The translations under genes were made by a program, and so were the position numbers. The notes beneath the pieces are model-generated. The model saw only the letters and a list, made by a program, of their open reading frames with translations, made no database searches and was not told the origin of the DNA. Shown one piece after another: positions 19,628 through 26,744 of a stretch of DNA of 64,000 nucleotides (position 1 is the stretch's first letter; each line of letters opens with the position of its first letter). This stretch comes from Pyxidicoccus parkwaysis (GTDB lineage Bacteria > Myxococcota > Myxococcia > Myxococcales > Myxococcaceae). The DNA is taken from NCBI RefSeq assembly GCF_017301735.1, contig NZ_CP071090.1:186001-250000 (forward strand), given 5' to 3'.

Positions 19628-19819
19628 GGGAGGCCGATTGAACCACGGGTGGCCGGTCTCGCGCCCCGGAGACTCGGGAGCCGGCGGCAATCGTTCCGAT
19701 GTGCAACCCAGTGACAGGACCTTTCTGAGGACTCCAGCTCGTGATGAGAGGCGCTGGAGCAGCCACTCCCGCTCGTCTACGGTGTGCGCCATTCCAGCGG
19801 TGAACCCGAGGTGACGCAC

Positions 19820-21109
19820 ATGACGGCCCCAGCCGGGGAGGATGGAGCCGAGACGCGCGCCTCGCGCTTGCTGTTGCGCAACCGCCCGTTCCGCTCGCTG
19901 TGGACGGCGCGAGTCATCTCCTTCACGGGAGACTCACTCAGCCTCGTGGCGCTGATGCTCCACGTCGCCGGCACCACCGGTCAGGCGCTCGCGGTGTCGC
20001 TGTTGCTGCTCGTCGGAGACTTCGCTCCCGCGCTGCTGGGCCCCCTAACTGGAGCCATCAGCGACCGGTTCGAGCTCAAGCGGGTGATGGTGGTCTGCGA
20101 GCTCATCCAGGGCGTGCTCCTGCTGACGCTCGCGCTCGTCCTTCCGCCGCTGCCAGTGTTGCTGGTCCTGGTGGGACTGCGCTCGGTGGCCGGACACGTC
20201 TTCCAGCCCGCGTCCCGCTCCGCCGTGCCGGCGCTGGTGAAGGAACGCGAGTTGGAGGTCGCGAACTCCACCCTCGGCTTTGGCACCAACGCCGCCGAAG
20301 CGCTGGGCCCGCTCGTGGCCGCGGCGCTGCTGCCGTTCGTGGGTATCCAGGGCGTGCTCCTCATCGACGCCGCGTCGTTCTTCGTCTCCGCGCTCCTGCT
20401 GGTCTCCGTGCCTTCACTGCCTCCAGCTCCGAGCGAATCGCACGGCCCGGCGCCGTCGCTCTTGCGGCAGGCGAGGCTGGGCCTGGGCTACCTCTGGAGC
20501 ACTCCCGCCGTCCGCGTCATTGCGCTGGGCTTCTGTGCCGTCGTCGCGTTCAACGGCGTCGATGACGTGGCGTTGGTGGTGTTGGCGAAGGACACCTTCC
20601 ACGCGGGGGACTCGGCGGTGGGACTGCTGCTGGGCGCGGTGGGCGTCGGGCTGGTGTGCGGCTACGGGCTGCTGGCGCGCTACGGCGCGCTCGCGTCGAT
20701 GCCGCTGTTGCTCATCCTCGGCTTCGCGGTGAGCAGCGTGGGCAATCTGCTCACGGGCCTGGCCTGGGCCGTCTCCGCCGCGCTCGCGATGCAGACGGTG
20801 CGGGGGCTCGGCATCGCCGCGATGGACGTGGCCAGCAACACGCTGCTTCAGCGTGTGGTGCCACCAGGGATGCTCGGCCGCGTCTTCGGCAACCTCTACG
20901 GCGCGATTGGCGTGGCCGCCGCTGTGTCGTATCTCGGTGGCGGCCTGCTGCTGGATGCCACGTCGGCTCCGGTGACGCTGATGGTCGCCGGAGCCGGAGG
21001 CACGCTGGCCACGGTCGTGGTGGCGCTCACGCTGCCGGGCGCCCTGCGCAGGAGCCTGGCAGCGCGAGACGCGGGAGCCGCCGAGGTCAGACGAGCCGCT
21101 TCCCCCTGA
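19820..21109 (+). CDS. MFS exporter (MFS_3 / drug efflux type)
   Basis: A 429-residue major facilitator with 12 predicted membrane segments. The N-terminal cytoplasmic RNRPFRSLWTARVISFTGD and loop-2 signature GAISDRFELKRVMV are typical of the MFS_3 group, which includes enterobactin and macrolide exporters. ATG at 19820 has GAGGTGA five bases upstream; a shorter-RBS ATG lies at 19784. It is transcribed divergently from an AraC-type regulator. The last 23 bases overlap the convergent SnoaL-like gene. The export substrate is unknown. Confidence 0.88.
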   Translation: MTAPAGEDGAETRASRLLLRNRPFRSLWTARVISFTGDSLSLVALMLHVAGTTGQALAVSLLLLVGDFAPALLGPLTGAISDRFELKRVMVVCELIQGVLLLTLALVLPPLPVLLVLVGLRSVAGHVFQPASRSAVPALVKERELEVANSTLGFGTNAAEALGPLVAAALLPFVGIQGVLLIDAASFFVSALLLVSVPSLPPAPSESHGPAPSLLRQARLGLGYLWSTPAVRVIALGFCAVVAFNGVDDVALVVLAKDTFHAGDSAVGLLLGAVGVGLVCGYGLLARYGALASMPLLLILGFAVSSVGNLLTGLAWAVSAALAMQTVRGLGIAAMDVASNTLLQRVVPPGMLGRVFGNLYGAIGVAAAVSYLGGGLLLDATSAPVTLMVAGAGGTLATVVVALTLPGALRRSLAARDAGAAEVRRAASP

Positions 21110-21581
21110 CGAACTCCGCGCCCAGCAGATTGCCGCGATGGTGGATGGGGTCCAGCAGCACCTTGCGAATCTTCCAGCCCTCGGAGGTCTTCTCCACGTC
21201 GTGCGTGTAGCGGATGACGAGCGTCCACTCCTGGGGCACGCCGTTCAGCGAGAAGAAGTGGCCGACGTCGGCGTACGCCATCACCTGGGCCTCGGTGGCG
21301 TTCTTGAAGTGCGTCCGCACCGTGTTGGCCGTGGCGTGCTGGACGCGGGTGTACGGGGCCAGGGCGTCACTGCCCAGCTTGCCCATCTCTTCACGGGCGA
21401 GGGTGATGGGCTCTCCGCCGAAGAGCCGGGTGTAGTCCGCCACCAGCTTGGGCGTGAAGCAGTTCACCCAGCGGCTCCAGTCGCCGGTGTCCTTGCCGAA
21501 GTCGATGGCCTGCCCGTACTCCGCCACCAACTCCTGAACGGCAATCCAGTCCAGCACGTACTGCAGGTCCTGACCCTTCAT
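21087..21581 (-). CDS. SnoaL/NTF2-like fold protein
   Basis: A 164-residue single-domain protein with the cone-shaped NTF2/SnoaL_4 pattern: helix LDWIAVQELVAEYGQAID, WSRWVNCFTPKLVADYT, then strands TVRTHFKNATEAQVMAYADV and TLVIRYTHDVEKTSEGWKIRKV. ATG at 21581 is preceded by GGGAGGTG seven bases away. Such proteins are isomerases, dehydratases, hydroxylases or ligand binders; no catalytic set can be assigned here. It overlaps the MFS gene convergently by 23 bases, so it is an independent unit. Confidence 0.85.
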   Translation of the reverse strand: MKGQDLQYVLDWIAVQELVAEYGQAIDFGKDTGDWSRWVNCFTPKLVADYTRLFGGEPITLAREEMGKLGSDALAPYTRVQHATANTVRTHFKNATEAQVMAYADVGHFFSLNGVPQEWTLVIRYTHDVEKTSEGWKIRKVLLDPIHHRGNLLGAEFVRGKRLV

Positions 21582-21631: not shown

Positions 21632-22522
21632 CTACGAAAGGGGAGGGGGCCGCATGGACACCGCTGTAACAGGAGCAACCCGGTTCCAGTGCTCCCGGAT
21701 GCGCGGGAAGACAGCGCGGAAGAGGGCGAACCACAGCACGCCCGCGAGCACGTCCACGGCATAGTGGTAGCGCAGCACCAGCGTGGACCACACGATGGCG
21801 ATGGCTACGGGAAGCAGCGCCCGGAAGCGGCGCGGATGCCCGAGCCGGTCATGCTCCAGCAGCACGAGCGTGATGTACGTGTGCAGGCTCGGGAAGATGT
21901 CGTAGGCGGACGAGCCGCCCGCCACCACCGCCGCGTTCAGCGAAGTGAGCCAGCCACCTTCAATGGGCACGCGGAACAGCGAGGGCCAAGCCACCGAGGG
22001 CCCGAGTCCGGGCACGAGGTAGTAACCCGCGATGCCTGGCACGTACGCGGAGAATACGTGGACGAAGAACCGCTCCGCCCGCGCGCGGGGGCCGATGACG
22101 GCCCACGCCATCGCCAGGTGCAGGTACGCGTGGAACGCGAGGTAGCCCGCGCTGAACACGTCATTCACCCACGGCCGGCTCCAGCGCTGGAACCACACTG
22201 CCGGCGTGACGCCGAACAGTCGCTCGTCCAGGGCGAGCAACGCCACGTCGTACGAAGGCAGCCCGAGCGCGGGCACCGTGTGTTTCACGGACGAGTAGAA
22301 GAAGAACGTCGCCGCATACGCGAGCAGCAACCGCACGCGGAACACATGCGCGAAGCCGTCCAACCGGGCGAGCAGCACCACTCCGGCCACGAACAACACC
22401 GTGGCTCCGAGCACCTGCCCGGTGATGGGCGCACCGAAGCCCGCGACGAGCACGAGCGCCAGCGAGAGGGCCGCGCCGAAGCCCGTGAGCAGCACCTCGT
22501 GCAGGTACGGCCGCTCAGACAT
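21632..22522 (-). CDS. PAP2-superfamily membrane phosphatase / phosphotransferase
   Basis: A 296-residue membrane protein with six or more hydrophobic segments. The PAP2 active-site motifs are visible as FPSLHTY (motif 2, catalytic His) and RYHYAVDVLAG (motif 3); motif 1 is the weak form of the PAP2_3 (Aur1/inositolphosphotransferase-like) group. Such enzymes dephosphorylate or exchange phosphate-linked lipid head groups in the membrane. Its ATG overlaps the end of the desaturase gene by eight bases (ATGTCTGA), so the pair is coupled and probably acts on membrane lipid. Confidence 0.85.
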   Translation of the reverse strand: MSERPYLHEVLLTGFGAALSLALVLVAGFGAPITGQVLGATVLFVAGVVLLARLDGFAHVFRVRLLLAYAATFFFYSSVKHTVPALGLPSYDVALLALDERLFGVTPAVWFQRWSRPWVNDVFSAGYLAFHAYLHLAMAWAVIGPRARAERFFVHVFSAYVPGIAGYYLVPGLGPSVAWPSLFRVPIEGGWLTSLNAAVVAGGSSAYDIFPSLHTYITLVLLEHDRLGHPRRFRALLPVAIAIVWSTLVLRYHYAVDVLAGVLWFALFRAVFPRIREHWNRVAPVTAVSMRPPPLS

Positions 22523-23474
22523 CCGGCGTGGCGCTCCTCGCCGCGCGCACGAGCGAGCCGCTGAGTACGCCGCGCACGAACGAGAAGTAGGACGGGATGA
22601 AGGGCGCTCCCTGGGCCAGCAGTTCCGCGCGCAGCGTGCGGTGCAATTCGGGGAGGTTGTACCAGGGCACGCGCGGGTACAGATGGTGCTCGAGGTGGTA
22701 GTTCTCGTTGCACATGAAGAAGCGCGTCACCGGGTTGGACAGGATGGTGCGCGAGCCACGGACCGGATGGTTGCTCTCGGGGAGGAACGTGTGCTGGCTC
22801 ATGCCCCGGATGTTCACCAGCGTGTTGATGACCAGCATGGGCATCACCCACGCGTGGAGCAGCACCGTTCCGGGCACGAAGGCCCCGGCGAGCACGGCGG
22901 CCACCGCGAGCAGCGCCACCTCCAGTTCAATCCACCGGCGCTCGGAGGATGTTCCGTGCCGCCAGCCCAGGATGGGAATCATCGTGATGTAGGCCGGGTA
23001 GCCGAGCAGCAGCCGCCCCACGTGCATCGCCAGCTCCAGCCAGCGGCGTCCGGTGTAGTTGCCGTAGTGGTCCGGGTCCTTCCCTCCGCCGAGGTCCACG
23101 TGGTGCCGCAGGTGGAGCACCTTGTACGCCGCGAAGTTCTGCAGCACGGGCAGCGCGCACAGCATGCCTCCGAGCCGGTTGAGCCACCTGCGCCGCGACA
23201 GGCTGCCGTGCACCGCCTCGTGGGTGAACAGGCTGATGCCATGCAGGGACGCCGCGGCGGCGAGGTACAGCACCGCGCGAGCAAGCCACGCGGGTGCCGA
23301 AGTCTCCGCCGAGAGTCGGACGGACAGCACCGCCGCGACGAGGTACAGCGCCAGGAAGGTCAGGAGCCGGGGAAGGTGCCTGGCGTCGACCTGCTCCAGC
23401 GTGCGCAACCGGGCGGGTGTGAGGGACTCTGTCTGCGGCGGCATGGGCTGGTCCGGTGCGGACGAAGATGCCAT
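22515..23474 (-). CDS. membrane fatty acid desaturase
   Basis: About 319 residues with four or more membrane segments and the three His boxes of the membrane di-iron desaturase/hydroxylase family: HEAVH, HLRHH and NYHLEHHLYP. It introduces a double bond or hydroxyl into a lipid acyl chain in the membrane. The start is uncertain: ATG at 23474 is chosen, with 23444 as an alternative, and neither has a strong ribosome-binding site. It is divergent from the DUF3419 gene with under 80 bases between them, and it is coupled to the PAP2 gene behind it. Confidence 0.92.
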   Translation of the reverse strand: MASSSAPDQPMPPQTESLTPARLRTLEQVDARHLPRLLTFLALYLVAAVLSVRLSAETSAPAWLARAVLYLAAAASLHGISLFTHEAVHGSLSRRRWLNRLGGMLCALPVLQNFAAYKVLHLRHHVDLGGGKDPDHYGNYTGRRWLELAMHVGRLLLGYPAYITMIPILGWRHGTSSERRWIELEVALLAVAAVLAGAFVPGTVLLHAWVMPMLVINTLVNIRGMSQHTFLPESNHPVRGSRTILSNPVTRFFMCNENYHLEHHLYPRVPWYNLPELHRTLRAELLAQGAPFIPSYFSFVRGVLSGSLVRAARSATPDV

Positions 23475-23521
23475 ACAGTTGGCGTTTCCGTCGACGCCAC
23501 CTCTCGCCGCCGTGCCTGCCC

Positions 23522-24496
23522 GTGAGCTCAACACCGCACCGACTGAAGTTCGCCGTCGTTCGAGAAGACCCCGAGCTGGAATTGGCGCTCGTCGAGCGCA
23601 CGCGGGCTCGGGCCGTGCTCACGGTGGCGTCCGGTGGCTGCACCCTTCTCACCCTCGCGCGGCGTCACCCCCAACTGGAGCTGGTCGGCTTCGACTTCAA
23701 CCCGCGCCAGCTCGCGCACGTGCGTGAGAAGGCGGGTGCGCTCGGCTCCGTGCCGCTGGTGCGCTTCAACGTGGGCAGCGCGGACCCCGCGGGCGTGAAT
23801 CAGCGCGGCGAGTTCGAGGGCCTCTTCCGCACGCTCCGCCGCTTCATCGAGGAGTTCGTCGCGCCCGCGCGCGAGTTGGCGGCGTTCTTCGCGCCGGCCA
23901 CGCCGGACACGGAGCGACGCGCGCTGCTCGCCCGCTGGTTCGCTTCGCCGTACTGGCCGGTGGCGTTCGAGCTCGCGCTCGCGGTGCCCTTCCTCCATGC
24001 GATGTTCGGCCCGGCGGCGACGCAGCACGCGGCGCCCGGCTCATATCCCGGCTACTTCCAGTCCGTCTTCGAGCGGGGCCTGCGCCGCGAGGACGCCCCG
24101 CGCAATCCGTTCCTCCAGCACGTGCTGCTGGGCTACTACGAGTTGGCGGACGCACCGGAGTACGTGCGCGCGGGCCGGCCCGTGCCTCTCACGCTGGTGG
24201 AGGGCTCGCTGCCGGACGTCCCCGGGCTGGGGCGCTTCGACGTCATCTCGCTGTCCAACATCTTCGACTGGTCGGATGACGCGCTCGTCGCGAGCTGGGC
24301 GGGGCTGCTCTCCCGTGAGGCTCGGCCGGGCTGTGCGGTGCTCCTCCGGCAGCTCAACAACCAGCGCAACCTGCGGCGCTTCTTCGAGCCGGCCTTCTCG
24401 TTCGACGATGCGCTCGGAGCGGAGCTGCTCGCGAAGGACCGCAGCCTCTTCTACGAACGCATCGAGGTCGGTTTCCGCAAGGCCCCGGGCAGATGA
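23522..24496 (+). CDS. DUF3419 / BtaA-like 3-amino-3-carboxypropyltransferase
   Basis: A SAM-dependent transferase of the DUF3419 family, about 324 residues. The family includes BtaA, which moves the 3-amino-3-carboxypropyl group of SAM to diacylglycerol in betaine-lipid synthesis. The SAM-site motif VLTVASGGCTLLTLA, followed by VGFDFNPRQL, matches the family. The C-terminal segment DVISLSNIFDWSDD and the arginine strand VLLRQLNNQRNL are also typical. The start is a GTG at 23522 without a clear ribosome-binding site; the frame can extend to 23456. Its stop overlaps the GNAT gene by four bases (ATGA). The acceptor molecule is not known. Confidence 0.82.
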   Translation: MSSTPHRLKFAVVREDPELELALVERTRARAVLTVASGGCTLLTLARRHPQLELVGFDFNPRQLAHVREKAGALGSVPLVRFNVGSADPAGVNQRGEFEGLFRTLRRFIEEFVAPARELAAFFAPATPDTERRALLARWFASPYWPVAFELALAVPFLHAMFGPAATQHAAPGSYPGYFQSVFERGLRREDAPRNPFLQHVLLGYYELADAPEYVRAGRPVPLTLVEGSLPDVPGLGRFDVISLSNIFDWSDDALVASWAGLLSREARPGCAVLLRQLNNQRNLRRFFEPAFSFDDALGAELLAKDRSLFYERIEVGFRKAPGR

Positions 24497-25413
24497 GTGG
24501 CGTGCGCTTCGTCGTGGCGCGGCCCGACTCGCTCGGGCCCTATGTGGAACGGCTGCGCCAGTTGGAGCAGGGCATCCTGTATCCGCTCGCGGATGGGGCG
24601 GACCACTTCTTCATCGACCACGGGCCGGAGTACCACCCGTTCTTCTCGTCCCTGGGGGACGCGTACTTCCTGCTCGCCCTGCGCGGTGACGAGCTGCTGG
24701 GCTCCGTGACTGGCGTGGCCCGGAAGGTCCAGCGCGGTGAGCGCGCGCTGGATGCGCTCTACATCTGTGACCTCAAGCTGGTTCCCCACGCGCGAGGCAC
24801 GGGGCTGTCGCGGCGGCTCATCTTCGAGGGGCTCAAGTACCTGTTCCGCATCCCCGCCCTGCGCCGCACGCGCTTCCTGTACGGTGCGGCGATGCGAGGT
24901 GCGCGCGGTGATGTGATGCGCACCGCGAGAGGGTGGAACCCGCTGCGGATGGGGCGACCGGCGAGCCGGCTCGCGCTCTACTTCGTCCCTCCGTCGAAGC
25001 TCGCGGCGCTGGAACCGCGCGGTGGGCCCGCGCGTCCCATGGGGGACGGACTCTGCCTGGGGCCGGCACCCGGGCGGAGGCTGGAAGGAGCGGGCTGGTG
25101 CAGCACGGCGGGCGCGAAGGACCTGCAGCGACTGTCGACCCGGAGCCCCTGGCCGCTGGTCCACCTCGCCGCGCCGCCGAGCGCCTGGACGCACGGCTGG
25201 GCGTCCTATCTGCGCGCCTGTGGTGAGGAATTGGCGGCGCGAGGCACGGACGCGCTGGCCTGCTTCAGCATCGACGAGCGGCTGGAGGACCACGTCGGCT
25301 GGTTGCGTGGCGCCGGGCTTCCTCCCGACTCGGTGTGTACCGTGTATTCACTCGACCTCTCCCTCCCGATAGAAGCGCCAGCATGGGTGCACCTTCCCTC
25401 GTCCGAAATCTGA
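24493..25413 (+). CDS. GNAT-family N-acyltransferase
   Basis: A 306-residue acyltransferase. The N-terminal 150 residues show the GNAT fold: LLALRGDELLGSVTGVAR, then the acetyl-CoA motif A ICDLKLVPHARGTGLSRRL (R-x-x-G-x-G type), and a conserved strand RTRFLYGAAM. A further 150-residue C-terminal part has no recognised motif. It is the middle gene of a coupled trio (4-nt overlap before, 31-nt overlap after), which suggests that it acylates the amino group made by the DUF3419 enzyme. That step is inference. Confidence 0.78.
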   Translation: MSGVRFVVARPDSLGPYVERLRQLEQGILYPLADGADHFFIDHGPEYHPFFSSLGDAYFLLALRGDELLGSVTGVARKVQRGERALDALYICDLKLVPHARGTGLSRRLIFEGLKYLFRIPALRRTRFLYGAAMRGARGDVMRTARGWNPLRMGRPASRLALYFVPPSKLAALEPRGGPARPMGDGLCLGPAPGRRLEGAGWCSTAGAKDLQRLSTRSPWPLVHLAAPPSAWTHGWASYLRACGEELAARGTDALACFSIDERLEDHVGWLRGAGLPPDSVCTVYSLDLSLPIEAPAWVHLPSSEI

Positions 25414-26084
25414 AGCTGCGTCAGCACATCGCCGGGCTGAAGGCGGAGTGGAACGTCCTGGACGTGCCCTACCTGCGTGCGCTGCGGGACGGCTCCTTCG
25501 AGCGCGCGGACTTCGTGGAGACACAGGTCCAGTTCTTCGCGGCCGTCGCGCACTTCACGCGGCCCATGGCCATCCTCGCCAGCCGGCTGCCCCGGCCCGA
25601 GCAGCGGCTGCCCCTGGTGGAGAACGTCTTCGACGAGCATGGGCGCGGCAATCTGGCGCATGGCCACGAGCGCACGTTCCGCCTGTTGCTGGAGCGGCTC
25701 GGCGTGGAGGGGGCTCGCGTGGGCCGCATGCCCTGGCCGGAGGTGCGTGCCTTCAACGCCGCGCTGACGGGAGTGGCCTCGTTCGACTCGACGCTCACGG
25801 GGCTCGCGGTGTTCGGCCTCATCGAGGACCTGTTCAGCGGAATCTCGCTGGAGTTGGGGCGCGGCATCGTCTCGCGCGGCTGGCTCGATGCGGCGCAGGT
25901 GGTGCACTACCCCACGCACGCGACGCTCGATGAGGAGCATGCGGACGGCTTCTACCGGCAGCTCGACGGGCCGTACGACGCGGACGCGCGCACCGCGGAG
26001 GAAATCGAGCAGGGTCTGCTCCTCGGCGGACACCTGTTCCTGAGCCTCTACGACGACCTCTACCGGGCGCGCGGACGCAGGTAG
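25383..26084 (+). CDS. haem-oxygenase-like di-iron oxidase (PqqC/TenA-like fold)
   Basis: A 233-residue all-helical protein of the 'iron-containing redox enzyme' group. Candidate metal ligands are spread over the helices as in HDO enzymes: FVETQVQFF, ENVFDEHGRG followed by LAHGHE, GLIEDLF, and HATLDEEHADGFY. Known members perform oxidative C-C cleavage, desaturation or ring formation on acids and amino acids. The ATG at 25383 gives the expected length; a GTG at 25335 is possible. It overlaps the GNAT gene by 31 bases and ends convergent to a TPR gene. Confidence 0.78.
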   Translation: MGAPSLVRNLKLRQHIAGLKAEWNVLDVPYLRALRDGSFERADFVETQVQFFAAVAHFTRPMAILASRLPRPEQRLPLVENVFDEHGRGNLAHGHERTFRLLLERLGVEGARVGRMPWPEVRAFNAALTGVASFDSTLTGLAVFGLIEDLFSGISLELGRGIVSRGWLDAAQVVHYPTHATLDEEHADGFYRQLDGPYDADARTAEEIEQGLLLGGHLFLSLYDDLYRARGRR

Positions 26085-26093
26085 CCGGGGCGG

Positions 26094-26744
26094 TCAGCGC
26101 CGCGTCAGGGCGGAGCGCAGCCAACGCCACCCTGTTCCCAGGCCCGGTGAGATTCGCAGGAGTGTCCAGTGGACCCGCGCGGCCGCTGGCCCCTGCGCTC
26201 CCTGGGCCAATGGTTCGAGCAACGCCAGGGCCTCTGCGCGTTGTCCCTGGCGTGCGAGCAGCAGGGCCAGGTCCAGCTTGGGCTCGAAGAGGTCGGGGTC
26301 GAGCGCCAGCGCCTCCTGCAGGAGGGCGATGGCTTCGCGCCGCTCATTCCTCCGGCTGAAGTGGAACCGTCCGCGAATCAATGCACGGACCGCGTCAGCG
26401 CGGCGGTCCCTGGAGAGGTTGAGCTGCGACAACTGCCGCCAGAGGTCCACGCGGTGGGGGAACGTGTCGGCGGCCTGCGTGTAGACGGCGATGGCCTTGT
26501 CGGCGAAGCCTTTCTCGAGGTGTGCCTGGGCCGCGGTGTGGAAGCTCTGGAGGGCGGCTTCGGACTGGTGGGCTCGGGCCAGGAGCGGTGCCAGCTTGCC
26601 GTGGATGACCGGGTCCTTCGGTTCGAGCTCCAGCGCCTTGCGATAGCCCGCGATGGCCTTCTTGAGCCGGCCCTTGGAGCGCGCGACATCTGCTTCTGCG
26701 ATGAGCTCGGAACGCGTCCTGGGTGTCTTCCCTCGGAAGAACAT
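26094..26744 (-). CDS. TPR-repeat protein
   Basis: A 216-residue cytoplasmic protein composed of about five tetratricopeptide repeats, for example GRLKKAIAGYRKALELEPKD, GFADKAIAVYTQAADTFPH and REAIALLQEALALDPD. It begins with a basic segment (MFFRGKTPRTRSELIAEAD). TPR arrays mediate protein-protein contacts. There is no linked domain that names a partner, and the neighbours are convergent or divergent, so no operon context helps. Confidence 0.85.
   Translation of the reverse strand: MFFRGKTPRTRSELIAEADVARSKGRLKKAIAGYRKALELEPKDPVIHGKLAPLLARAHQSEAALQSFHTAAQAHLEKGFADKAIAVYTQAADTFPHRVDLWRQLSQLNLSRDRRADAVRALIRGRFHFSRRNERREAIALLQEALALDPDLFEPKLDLALLLARQGQRAEALALLEPLAQGAQGPAAARVHWTLLRISPGLGTGWRWLRSALTRR

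Follow-up and report, generated by a model that had tools for sequence, protein, structure and literature searches.

Proteins of the DUF3419 family have been treated, to judge by titles, in work on algae, betaine lipids and a smut fungus, and in betaine-lipid synthesis the family member BtaA is followed by the methyltransferase BtaB. N-myristoyltransferases (NMTs) are described as using the C-terminal carboxylate of Gln496 as their catalytic base (PMC7048800). In another study, NMT-type double-GNAT proteins are defined by a C-terminus that reaches the active site, structures of this type are noted in bacteria, and histidine acetyltransferase (HisAT) is presented as a double-GNAT acting on the alpha-amine of a free amino acid (PMC12219266). 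Haem-oxygenase-like di-metal oxidases (HDOs), of which approximately a dozen members have been functionally validated, commonly carry a ligand set of three histidines and three carboxylates, according to a review (PMC13108848). On amino or fatty acids, the HDO reactions known so far include N-oxygenation, desaturation, C-C cleavage and the formation of an azetidine or alkyne. Here we report the analysis of a locus in a 64,000-nucleotide stretch of the Pyxidicoccus parkwaysis genome (contig NZ_CP071090.1, positions 186,001 to 250,000; hereafter the window), in which genes for these three kinds of protein lie side by side. They form a real module found across five bacterial phyla, and we put at about one in two the probability that it is a self-contained three-enzyme biosynthetic module making an N-acylated, oxidised lipoamino acid derived from S-adenosylmethionine (SAM).

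The trio consists of the following genes, each of which belongs to a known superfamily:

23522..24496, plus strand: DUF3419 (BtaA-related) protein, SAM-dependent putative aminocarboxypropyl transferase, core gene 1 (PF11899, 63.3 bits, cut-off 28.2)
24493..25413, plus strand: NMT-type double-GNAT acyltransferase, core gene 2 (assigned from a predicted model; Pfam score below threshold, 18.7 bits against a cut-off of 20.7)
25383..26084, plus strand: HDO, core gene 3 (PF14518, 65.3 bits, cut-off 28.9)

The DUF3419 and GNAT genes overlap by 4 nt and the GNAT and HDO genes by 31 nt, the codon of the final GNAT residue, Ile306, occupying 25408-25410. The GTG start of the DUF3419 gene at 23522 is uncertain, and some relatives from the same genus seem to begin nearer the LKFAVVRED motif. 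In the 13.2-Mb genome, a single contig, the DUF3419 gene is present once. Among the matches listed, our literature search found no description of a module of this composition; subscription papers lay mostly outside that search, and an earlier description is possible. The trio represents a real and widely conserved three-enzyme pathway.

A search for conserved co-occurrence, which an earlier reading of the window (the sequence-only reading) had suggested as a check, was run for the trio, and the homologues proved not to be scattered. The phylum Myxococcota was sampled with 195 genomes, a match at E < 1e-20 being counted as strong. Strong matches to DUF3419, GNAT and HDO were found in 39, 37 and 39 genomes, respectively, and all three in 37; at the looser E <= 0.001 the counts rise to 54, 39 and 80, many of the HDO matches being distant paralogues. 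The co-occurrence of DUF3419 and GNAT has a Fisher p of 7e-38, and outside the genus of the window genome, where GNAT is present in 10 of 12 DUF3419-positive genomes, a p of 2e-14, both values ignoring shared ancestry. The trio genes adjoin each other in 36 of the 37 genomes holding all three. In two genera of patchy distribution, g4 (2/6 genomes, some incomplete) and g8 (2/7), strong copies of the three genes are present or absent jointly, which is more telling than the Fisher p-values. The DUF3419-positive genomes without GNAT are G153, where the match reaches a contig end, and G156, which has another subtype beside a PlsC-type acyltransferase; a strong HDO without DUF3419 and GNAT was seen in G107 and G074. 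The linkage of the trio is far beyond chance.

The module is likewise kept outside this phylum. A scan of GTDB genomes seeded with the DUF3419 alignment alone returned 58 loci, and GNAT and HDO lie within ~4 kb of DUF3419 in 54 of them; the two surveys are not independent, since at least ten of the 58 loci are contigs already present among the 195 genomes. The four exceptions are L064 and L100, which are contig ends, L110, which represents the PlsC-associated subtype, and L081 (same genome as G151), where GNAT is present and HDO lies on a different contig. By record title the hosts include Myxococcota, Candidatus Poribacteria (9), Planctomycetota (2) and Pseudomonadota, the last with a complete chromosome from the Betaproteobacteria (L102), Kistimonas (L103), an Oceanospirillales metagenome-assembled genome (MAG; L109) and a 1.6-Mb Rickettsiaceae MAG (L107). 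Such titles may mislead in the case of MAGs: the planctomycete-titled L075 groups among Myxococcota in the DUF3419 tree. The gene order varies among DUF3419-GNAT-HDO, DUF3419-HDO-GNAT and HDO-DUF3419-GNAT (L063, L069), and HDO is divergent in L077.

Exporters adjoin the trio in two lineages. On a Mycobacterium riyadhense plasmid a transporter scoring above the MmpL-family cut-off comes after the order DUF3419-HDO-GNAT. Kistimonas and the Oceanospirillales MAG have an EmrA-like adaptor (below cut-off) and an EmrB-family exporter (above cut-off) after the trio. The remaining recurrent neighbours, as clustered by BLAST, are confined to single lineages, with one exception in L069, where an adaptor of the same cluster is encoded on the other strand at a distance of ~2 kb; Pfam annotation covered 29 neighbouring proteins, most neighbours being unannotated. 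Among viral contigs no relative of DUF3419 was confirmed, and plasmids gave no DUF3419 match with the window protein as query. With the Mycobacterium DUF3419 as query, the only plasmid match besides the query protein was a BtaA-family protein of Streptomyces, whose operon is a different one. HDO matches occur in seven plasmid records, and of the two contexts opened, that of M. riyadhense holds the trio and that of a Streptomyces has no DUF3419 annotated nearby.

To compare the trio DUF3419 with the betaine-lipid enzymes, we used Pseudomonadota as a positive control. DUF3419 matches were found in 32 of 398 genomes, and 29 of these, full-length and high-scoring, were taken as canonical BtaA. A BtaB-type methyltransferase is adjacent in all 29 loci, two of which supplied the queries; the names BtaA and BtaB for the control proteins are those we presume to apply. 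Across loci L001-L124, many of them just 4 kb long, a BtaB-like match at E <= 1e-5 was found only in L043/L062, which are one locus, and this match is weak (27% identity over 180 residues) and ~6 kb away. In the P. parkwaysis genome the BtaB query met no close BtaB: all 26 of its matches at E <= 0.01 (best 4e-7) are to generic methyltransferase domains. Scattered homologues and a btaB-like methyltransferase elsewhere, the two outcomes that the sequence-only reading had said would count against it, were thus both sought, and neither turned up.

In a quick maximum-likelihood tree of 57 proteins, with SH-aLRT supports and without bootstrap or AU test, 39 of 40 trio DUF3419s form their own clade (SH-aLRT 99), apart from nine BtaA proteins (98). 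The spacing between D58 and G96 is 24-42 residues in 39 of the 40 trio proteins versus 68-72 in six longer comparison proteins (three BtaA, two planctomycete relatives and L041) and 71 in the Mycobacterium protein, a difference of ~30 residues between the 39 and the six. The residues E15-D16, D58, Y206, D249-W250, R276, R307 and Y311 are common to trio proteins and BtaA, with few exceptions on either side. The DUF3419 model (pLDDT 95.2) has a SAM-methyltransferase fold with a best Z of 12.4 (161 residues); none of the Foldseek matches reached E <= 0.001, the weak ones including CntL (E 0.011) and MtNAS (E 0.015). The comparison with betaine lipids that the sequence-only reading had drawn therefore holds for the first enzyme, a DUF3419 protein above the family cut-off with shared core residues, and fails for the rest of the module, which lacks BtaB, has its DUF3419 in a separate clade with the shorter D58-G96 spacing, and carries an acyltransferase and an HDO instead. 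The proposed type of reaction, a putative transfer of an aminocarboxypropyl group, also resembles that of CntL and nicotianamine synthase, to which the weak fold matches point; these enzymes were not found as sequence relatives, and no opine dehydrogenase is present among the 29 annotated neighbours.

Several other DUF3419-like genes were observed in the course of these searches. Loci L047, L048, L049 and L052 (L051 in part), from other genomes of the family, encode a second, very diverged DUF3419-like protein with a DoxX-like protein in a conserved operon. In L048, L049 and L052 this operon also contains two ArsA-type ATPases together with a squalene/phytoene synthase, the Pfam assignments coming from L048. 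A DoxX-like/BtaA-family pair is also present on the Streptomyces plasmid L163. The DUF3419 of L041/L110, which the tree puts next to the trio clade, precedes genes for a PlsC-type acyltransferase and a NUDIX-SnoaL protein. The planctomycete of L105 (G197) has two BtaA-like genes (L114, L122) beyond its trio, one of which, by eye, has an MMPL-like protein before it and a phosphatidylserine-decarboxylase-like gene facing it on the other strand.

The second enzyme provides structural grounds for N-acylation that we consider good. A GNAT model built with 40 trio sequences (pLDDT 92.2, pTM 0.90) has NMTs and HisAT as its best Foldseek matches. VIA-align superposes model residues 1-306 on residues 153-496 of an HsNMT1 chain (Z 17.9, rmsd 3.5, 255 residues), so that the predicted protein adopts the double-GNAT NMT fold over its whole length at ~10% identity. 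Because this whole-length alignment ends 306 on 496, the last residue of the model would superpose on Gln496, the residue whose carboxylate serves as the NMT base. The C-terminus itself is fixed: a stop is visible in 101 loci, where the last residue is Ile in 98 and Leu in 1 and the gene is frameshifted in the other 2, and in 8 more loci the gene runs off the end; among 74 distinct matches, 72 end in Ile and 1 in Leu, making 73 of 74 with Ile or Leu and the stop at the exact position, and 1 is frameshifted. Since the same end persists where identity to the window protein drops to 21-30%, and also where GNAT and the gene after it are free of overlap, the constraint seems to be on the protein. 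Together, the model and this conservation suggest catalysis by the C-terminal carboxylate on an amine, and most simply on the alpha-amine of the aminocarboxypropyl group that DUF3419 would deliver. The N-acylation proposed from the sequence is strengthened by this predicted fold. The window protein resembles NMT and HisAT in the modelled fold and the position of its C-terminus, and it differs in being bacterial, in its low identity and in being tied to SAM and O2 chemistry. OlsB and FeeM, acyl-ACP:amino acid GNATs that produce lipoamino acids by N-acylating the alpha-amine of an amino acid, are not known to be of the NMT type. Separately, a lone GNAT at L161:6397-7212 is 47% identical to a Poribacteria member, with no DUF3419 or HDO in the 13 kb fetched.

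For the third enzyme, HrmI is the sole clear PDB relative found with a single sequence (E 8.5e-6), and a profile search returned CADD, HrmI and BesC. Residues E85, H95, E148, H179 and D183 are present in all 39 aligned HDO proteins and H186 in 38, which makes up the three-histidine/three-carboxylate set; the positions were assigned through alignment with HrmI and CADD and by the ligand spacing of SznF. This conserved set strengthens the case, also made from the sequence alone, for an oxidation, and O2-dependent chemistry at a di-metal centre would be expected of the trio HDO. With HrmI/BelK, BesC and CADD it has in common the PF14518 family, the ligand set and relatedness in PDB searches; those enzymes differ in that the available parts of the HDO literature mention no DUF3419 partner for them, whereas the window HDO has one. 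A conserved C-terminal extension, RxVxGPHSxAxG, occurs in most aligned HDO relatives, the aligned Myxococcus members being without it. In one genome of the genus a second, stand-alone HDO of 59% identity (L158:6098-6811) has LysR- and SDR-like neighbours by eye, with no DUF3419 or GNAT in the 12 kb fetched.

Opposite the trio, the window contains two further coupled genes:

21632..22522, minus strand: PAP2_3-family membrane phosphatase/phosphotransferase (PF14378, 45.6 bits, cut-off 27), lineage-specific accessory gene
22515..23474, minus strand: membrane fatty-acid-desaturase-family enzyme (PF00487, 171.9 bits, cut-off 29.7), lineage-specific accessory gene
23475..23521, no strand: divergent intergenic region of the window sequence, presumably a shared promoter region

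The two genes overlap by 8 nt. The desaturase start is best read as the ATG at 23474, and a divergent gap of 47 nt follows from that reading. All five genes, their divergent layout and their coupling by overlaps were thus recovered as the sequence-only reading had placed them. The desaturase belongs to PF00487 and has the three His boxes HEAVH, HLRHH and HLEHH, and the PAP2 protein contains the motifs PSLH and RYHYAVD, all taken to have the roles customary for these families. Desaturase orthologues at E < 1e-100 occur in exactly 30 of the 195 genomes, all trio-positive, and never without the trio in that set. The five genes stand together in 30 of 30 loci, from P. parkwaysis, 26 others of the genus and 3 of the family, the loci ending inside PAP2, which is therefore visible only in part. 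The trio also occurs without desaturase and PAP2: among the other 57 GTDB loci, close copies of both are present in 12, all from the same genus or a near relative. In L074 the genes for DUF3419, GNAT, HDO, desaturase and PAP2 are successive on one strand, the last two overlapping their predecessors by 4 nt each. The pair is a lineage-specific addition that Myxococcus sensu lato shares with two related genera and one additional MAG. Membrane-lipid remodelling, which had been proposed to lie nearby, would at most be added locally, since the two genes are limited to few lineages and do not belong to the general system. Of the named relatives in the GTDB scan, those of Pyxidicoccus and Myxococcus come closest, and because the genome of M. 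xanthus strain AM003 (L058) holds all five genes, the pathway is directly testable in this species.

The specific activity of the desaturase was also considered. Its best NCBIfam match is GntB, of the GntB/RtxC type of amino-acid hydroxylases and desaturases, at 82.3 bits far below the equivalog cut-off of 380 for GntB, and the plasmid contexts of related desaturases are ferredoxin/FAD-oxidoreductase operons in two of three cases, the third being unannotated. RtxC desaturates a homoserine ether in rhizobitoxine synthesis. A rhizobitoxine-like role is attractive because BtaA-type chemistry yields homoserine ethers; it was set aside as an idea only, most trio lineages being without the desaturase. 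An unrelated desaturase-family gene (PF00487; L034:4976-6061, genome G148) lies ~0.9 kb upstream of the trio in one locus.

We propose that DUF3419 would convert SAM and an acceptor to an aminocarboxypropyl derivative and methylthioadenosine; that the double-GNAT would transfer an acyl group, probably long-chain, from acyl-CoA onto the alpha-amine with its own C-terminal carboxylate as an NMT-like general base; and that HDO would carry out an O2 oxidation at its di-metal centre by N-hydroxylation, desaturation or C-C cleavage. These steps would turn SAM into a lipoamino acid, N-acylated and oxidised, which some lineages would export and which in Myxococcus and near relatives the divergent desaturase and PAP2 enzyme may further tailor or anchor. 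What we observed is a module and how widely it occurs, fold predictions for two of the three enzymes, catalytic residues that are conserved, and the lack of BtaB; which reactions take place, in what order, on which acceptor and to what product is our interpretation. The lipoamino acid would be exported or membrane-bound and is possibly a hydroxamate, the combination of N-hydroxylation and N-acylation being an attractive special case. Diacylglycerol is a possible acceptor, not favoured because the trio DUF3419 is shorter, and a small acceptor or none is equally open. As to the lipid or lipoamino acid envisaged earlier, the product class remains a fair guess; a lipid acceptor is hypothetical, given the ~30 residues absent from nearly all trio DUF3419s and the exporters in two lineages. 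Tentatively, and with somewhat less confidence than in the proposal above, we suggest an undescribed class of natural product in five phyla, for which SAM, fatty acyl-CoA, O2 and no enzymes beyond the trio would be needed. It would be an aminocarboxypropyl compound bearing an N-acyl group and possibly an N-hydroxyl group, whose acyltransferase is a bacterial NMT-type double-GNAT that would use its own C-terminal carboxylate on a small molecule and not a protein. If this is true, bacterial chemistry would gain a new lipoamino-acid or hydroxamate class, DUF3419 a role outside betaine lipids, and the HDO family one more reaction. Bacterial NMT-type double-GNATs, so far noticed as structures (PMC12219266), would gain a function.

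Several points weigh against this proposal. On the side of the module, HDO lies on a separate contig in G151, several of the hosts outside Myxococcota are MAGs that could be mis-binned, the exporters beside the trio are each limited to one lineage, and HDO is not exclusive to the module, since G074 and, as a second copy, G115 have relatives of it that stand apart from any trio. We know of no enzyme in the trio DUF3419 clade with known activity; the DUF3419 could instead cyclise SAM or methylate, and the Mycobacterium protein is very diverged, with a long branch, an unsure placement and the longer stretch kept. The role given to the C-terminal carboxylate draws on a model and on conservation, and the stand-alone GNAT relative L161, outside the trio, ends at the same place in Val. 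In addition, truncated human NMT is able to use another carboxylate with unchanged kcat (PMC7048800), and HisAT prefers short chains (PMC12219266). The L036 HDO has Asn in place of H186, and the HDO reaction is not predictable from sequence because the known HDO reactions are so varied.

The same observations bear on five other explanations. A new membrane lipid would arise if DUF3419 transferred the aminocarboxypropyl group to diacylglycerol, giving diacylglyceryl-homoserine, which GNAT would N-acylate in place of methylation by BtaB and HDO would oxidise, with PAP2 supplying diacylglycerol and the desaturase editing chains. The homology of the trio DUF3419 to BtaA, the desaturase and PAP2 fixed beside the trio in 30/30 loci and on the same strand in L074, the MmpL-family exporter in Mycobacterium and the unrelated desaturase gene of L034 all suit this scheme; it is doubtful, though not to be dismissed, in view of the D58-G96 spacing of 24-42 in 39/40 trio proteins against 68-72 in the longer ones and of the absence of desaturase and PAP2 orthologues beside the trio in the other lineages examined. 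Phospholipase-fed diacylglycerol was considered as well, since trio operons include a phosphoesterase of PF04185 in L040/L085 and a protein of the Exo_endo_phos family in L077, but the idea was not used, as both proteins look by their N-termini (by eye) like secreted lipoproteins and each is confined to one lineage. Ordinary synthesis of the betaine lipid DGTS, with BtaB encoded elsewhere, can rely on the DUF3419 domain scoring above the Pfam cut-off, and we reject it as having almost no chance: a BtaB-type gene adjoins all 29 control BtaA genes, whereas the trio loci are without an adjacent one, L001-L124 offering only the two weak matches ~6 kb off that represent one locus, the P. parkwaysis genome is without a close BtaB, and the trio DUF3419 forms a separate clade.

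N-hydroxylation followed by N-acylation is the logic of hydroxamate siderophores. A hydroxamate metallophore or hydroxamic acid would result if HDO N-hydroxylated an amine, GNAT acylated that nitrogen and DUF3419 added an aminocarboxypropyl chelating arm as in opine metallophores. We judge this unlikely: the single-sequence relationship of HDO to HrmI, a lysine N-oxygenase, and the exporters in two lineages favour it, but a profile search puts CADD above HrmI, the 29 annotated neighbours include no recognisable metal receptor or importer (most neighbours being unannotated), and no iron-type operator was recognised by eye. An acceptor would be dispensable altogether if DUF3419 cyclised or lysed SAM to homoserine lactone or azetidine-carboxylate, which GNAT would convert to products like acyl-homoserine lactones or acyl-azetidines. 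Methyltransferase-fold enzymes that cyclise SAM to azetidine-carboxylate are known (PMC10491745), and the need for universal substrates only fits the presence of the trio in the 1.6-Mb Rickettsiaceae MAG; the scheme is nonetheless improbable, given that BtaA, the relative with a described reaction, uses an acceptor and that no signal receptor was recognised among the same 29 neighbours. In a further explanation the GNAT would act as a true NMT, that is, as a bacterial protein N-acyltransferase in a trio that modifies a peptide. NMTs are indeed its closest folds; HisAT, however, is a case of a double-GNAT enzyme whose substrate is a free amino acid, and no precursor gene was recognised beside the trio (a weak point, open reading frames under 60-80 aa being uncalled), so that we hold this explanation to be very improbable.

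The region between the divergent genes was examined by aligning the upstream regions of 30 genomes. Conservation is patchy, no operator of the Fur, Pho or iron type was recognised by eye, and the best conserved block of the gap contains the probable start codon of the desaturase. The five-gene cluster is flanked in the window by these genes:

19784-21109: MFS protein
21087-21581: SnoaL protein
26094-26744: TPR protein

In the wider loci L033-L052, MFS and SnoaL recur only in L045 and TPR in none, and these genes are not counted in the system because they are nearly absent beside the cluster there. In L007 (G138) a close DUF3419 gene contains one in-frame TGA, due to decay or a sequencing error. 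Finally, a record titled Comamonas sp. KCTC 72670 (L059) carries the five-gene cluster at Myxococcus-level identity (81% for DUF3419), and its title looks wrong.

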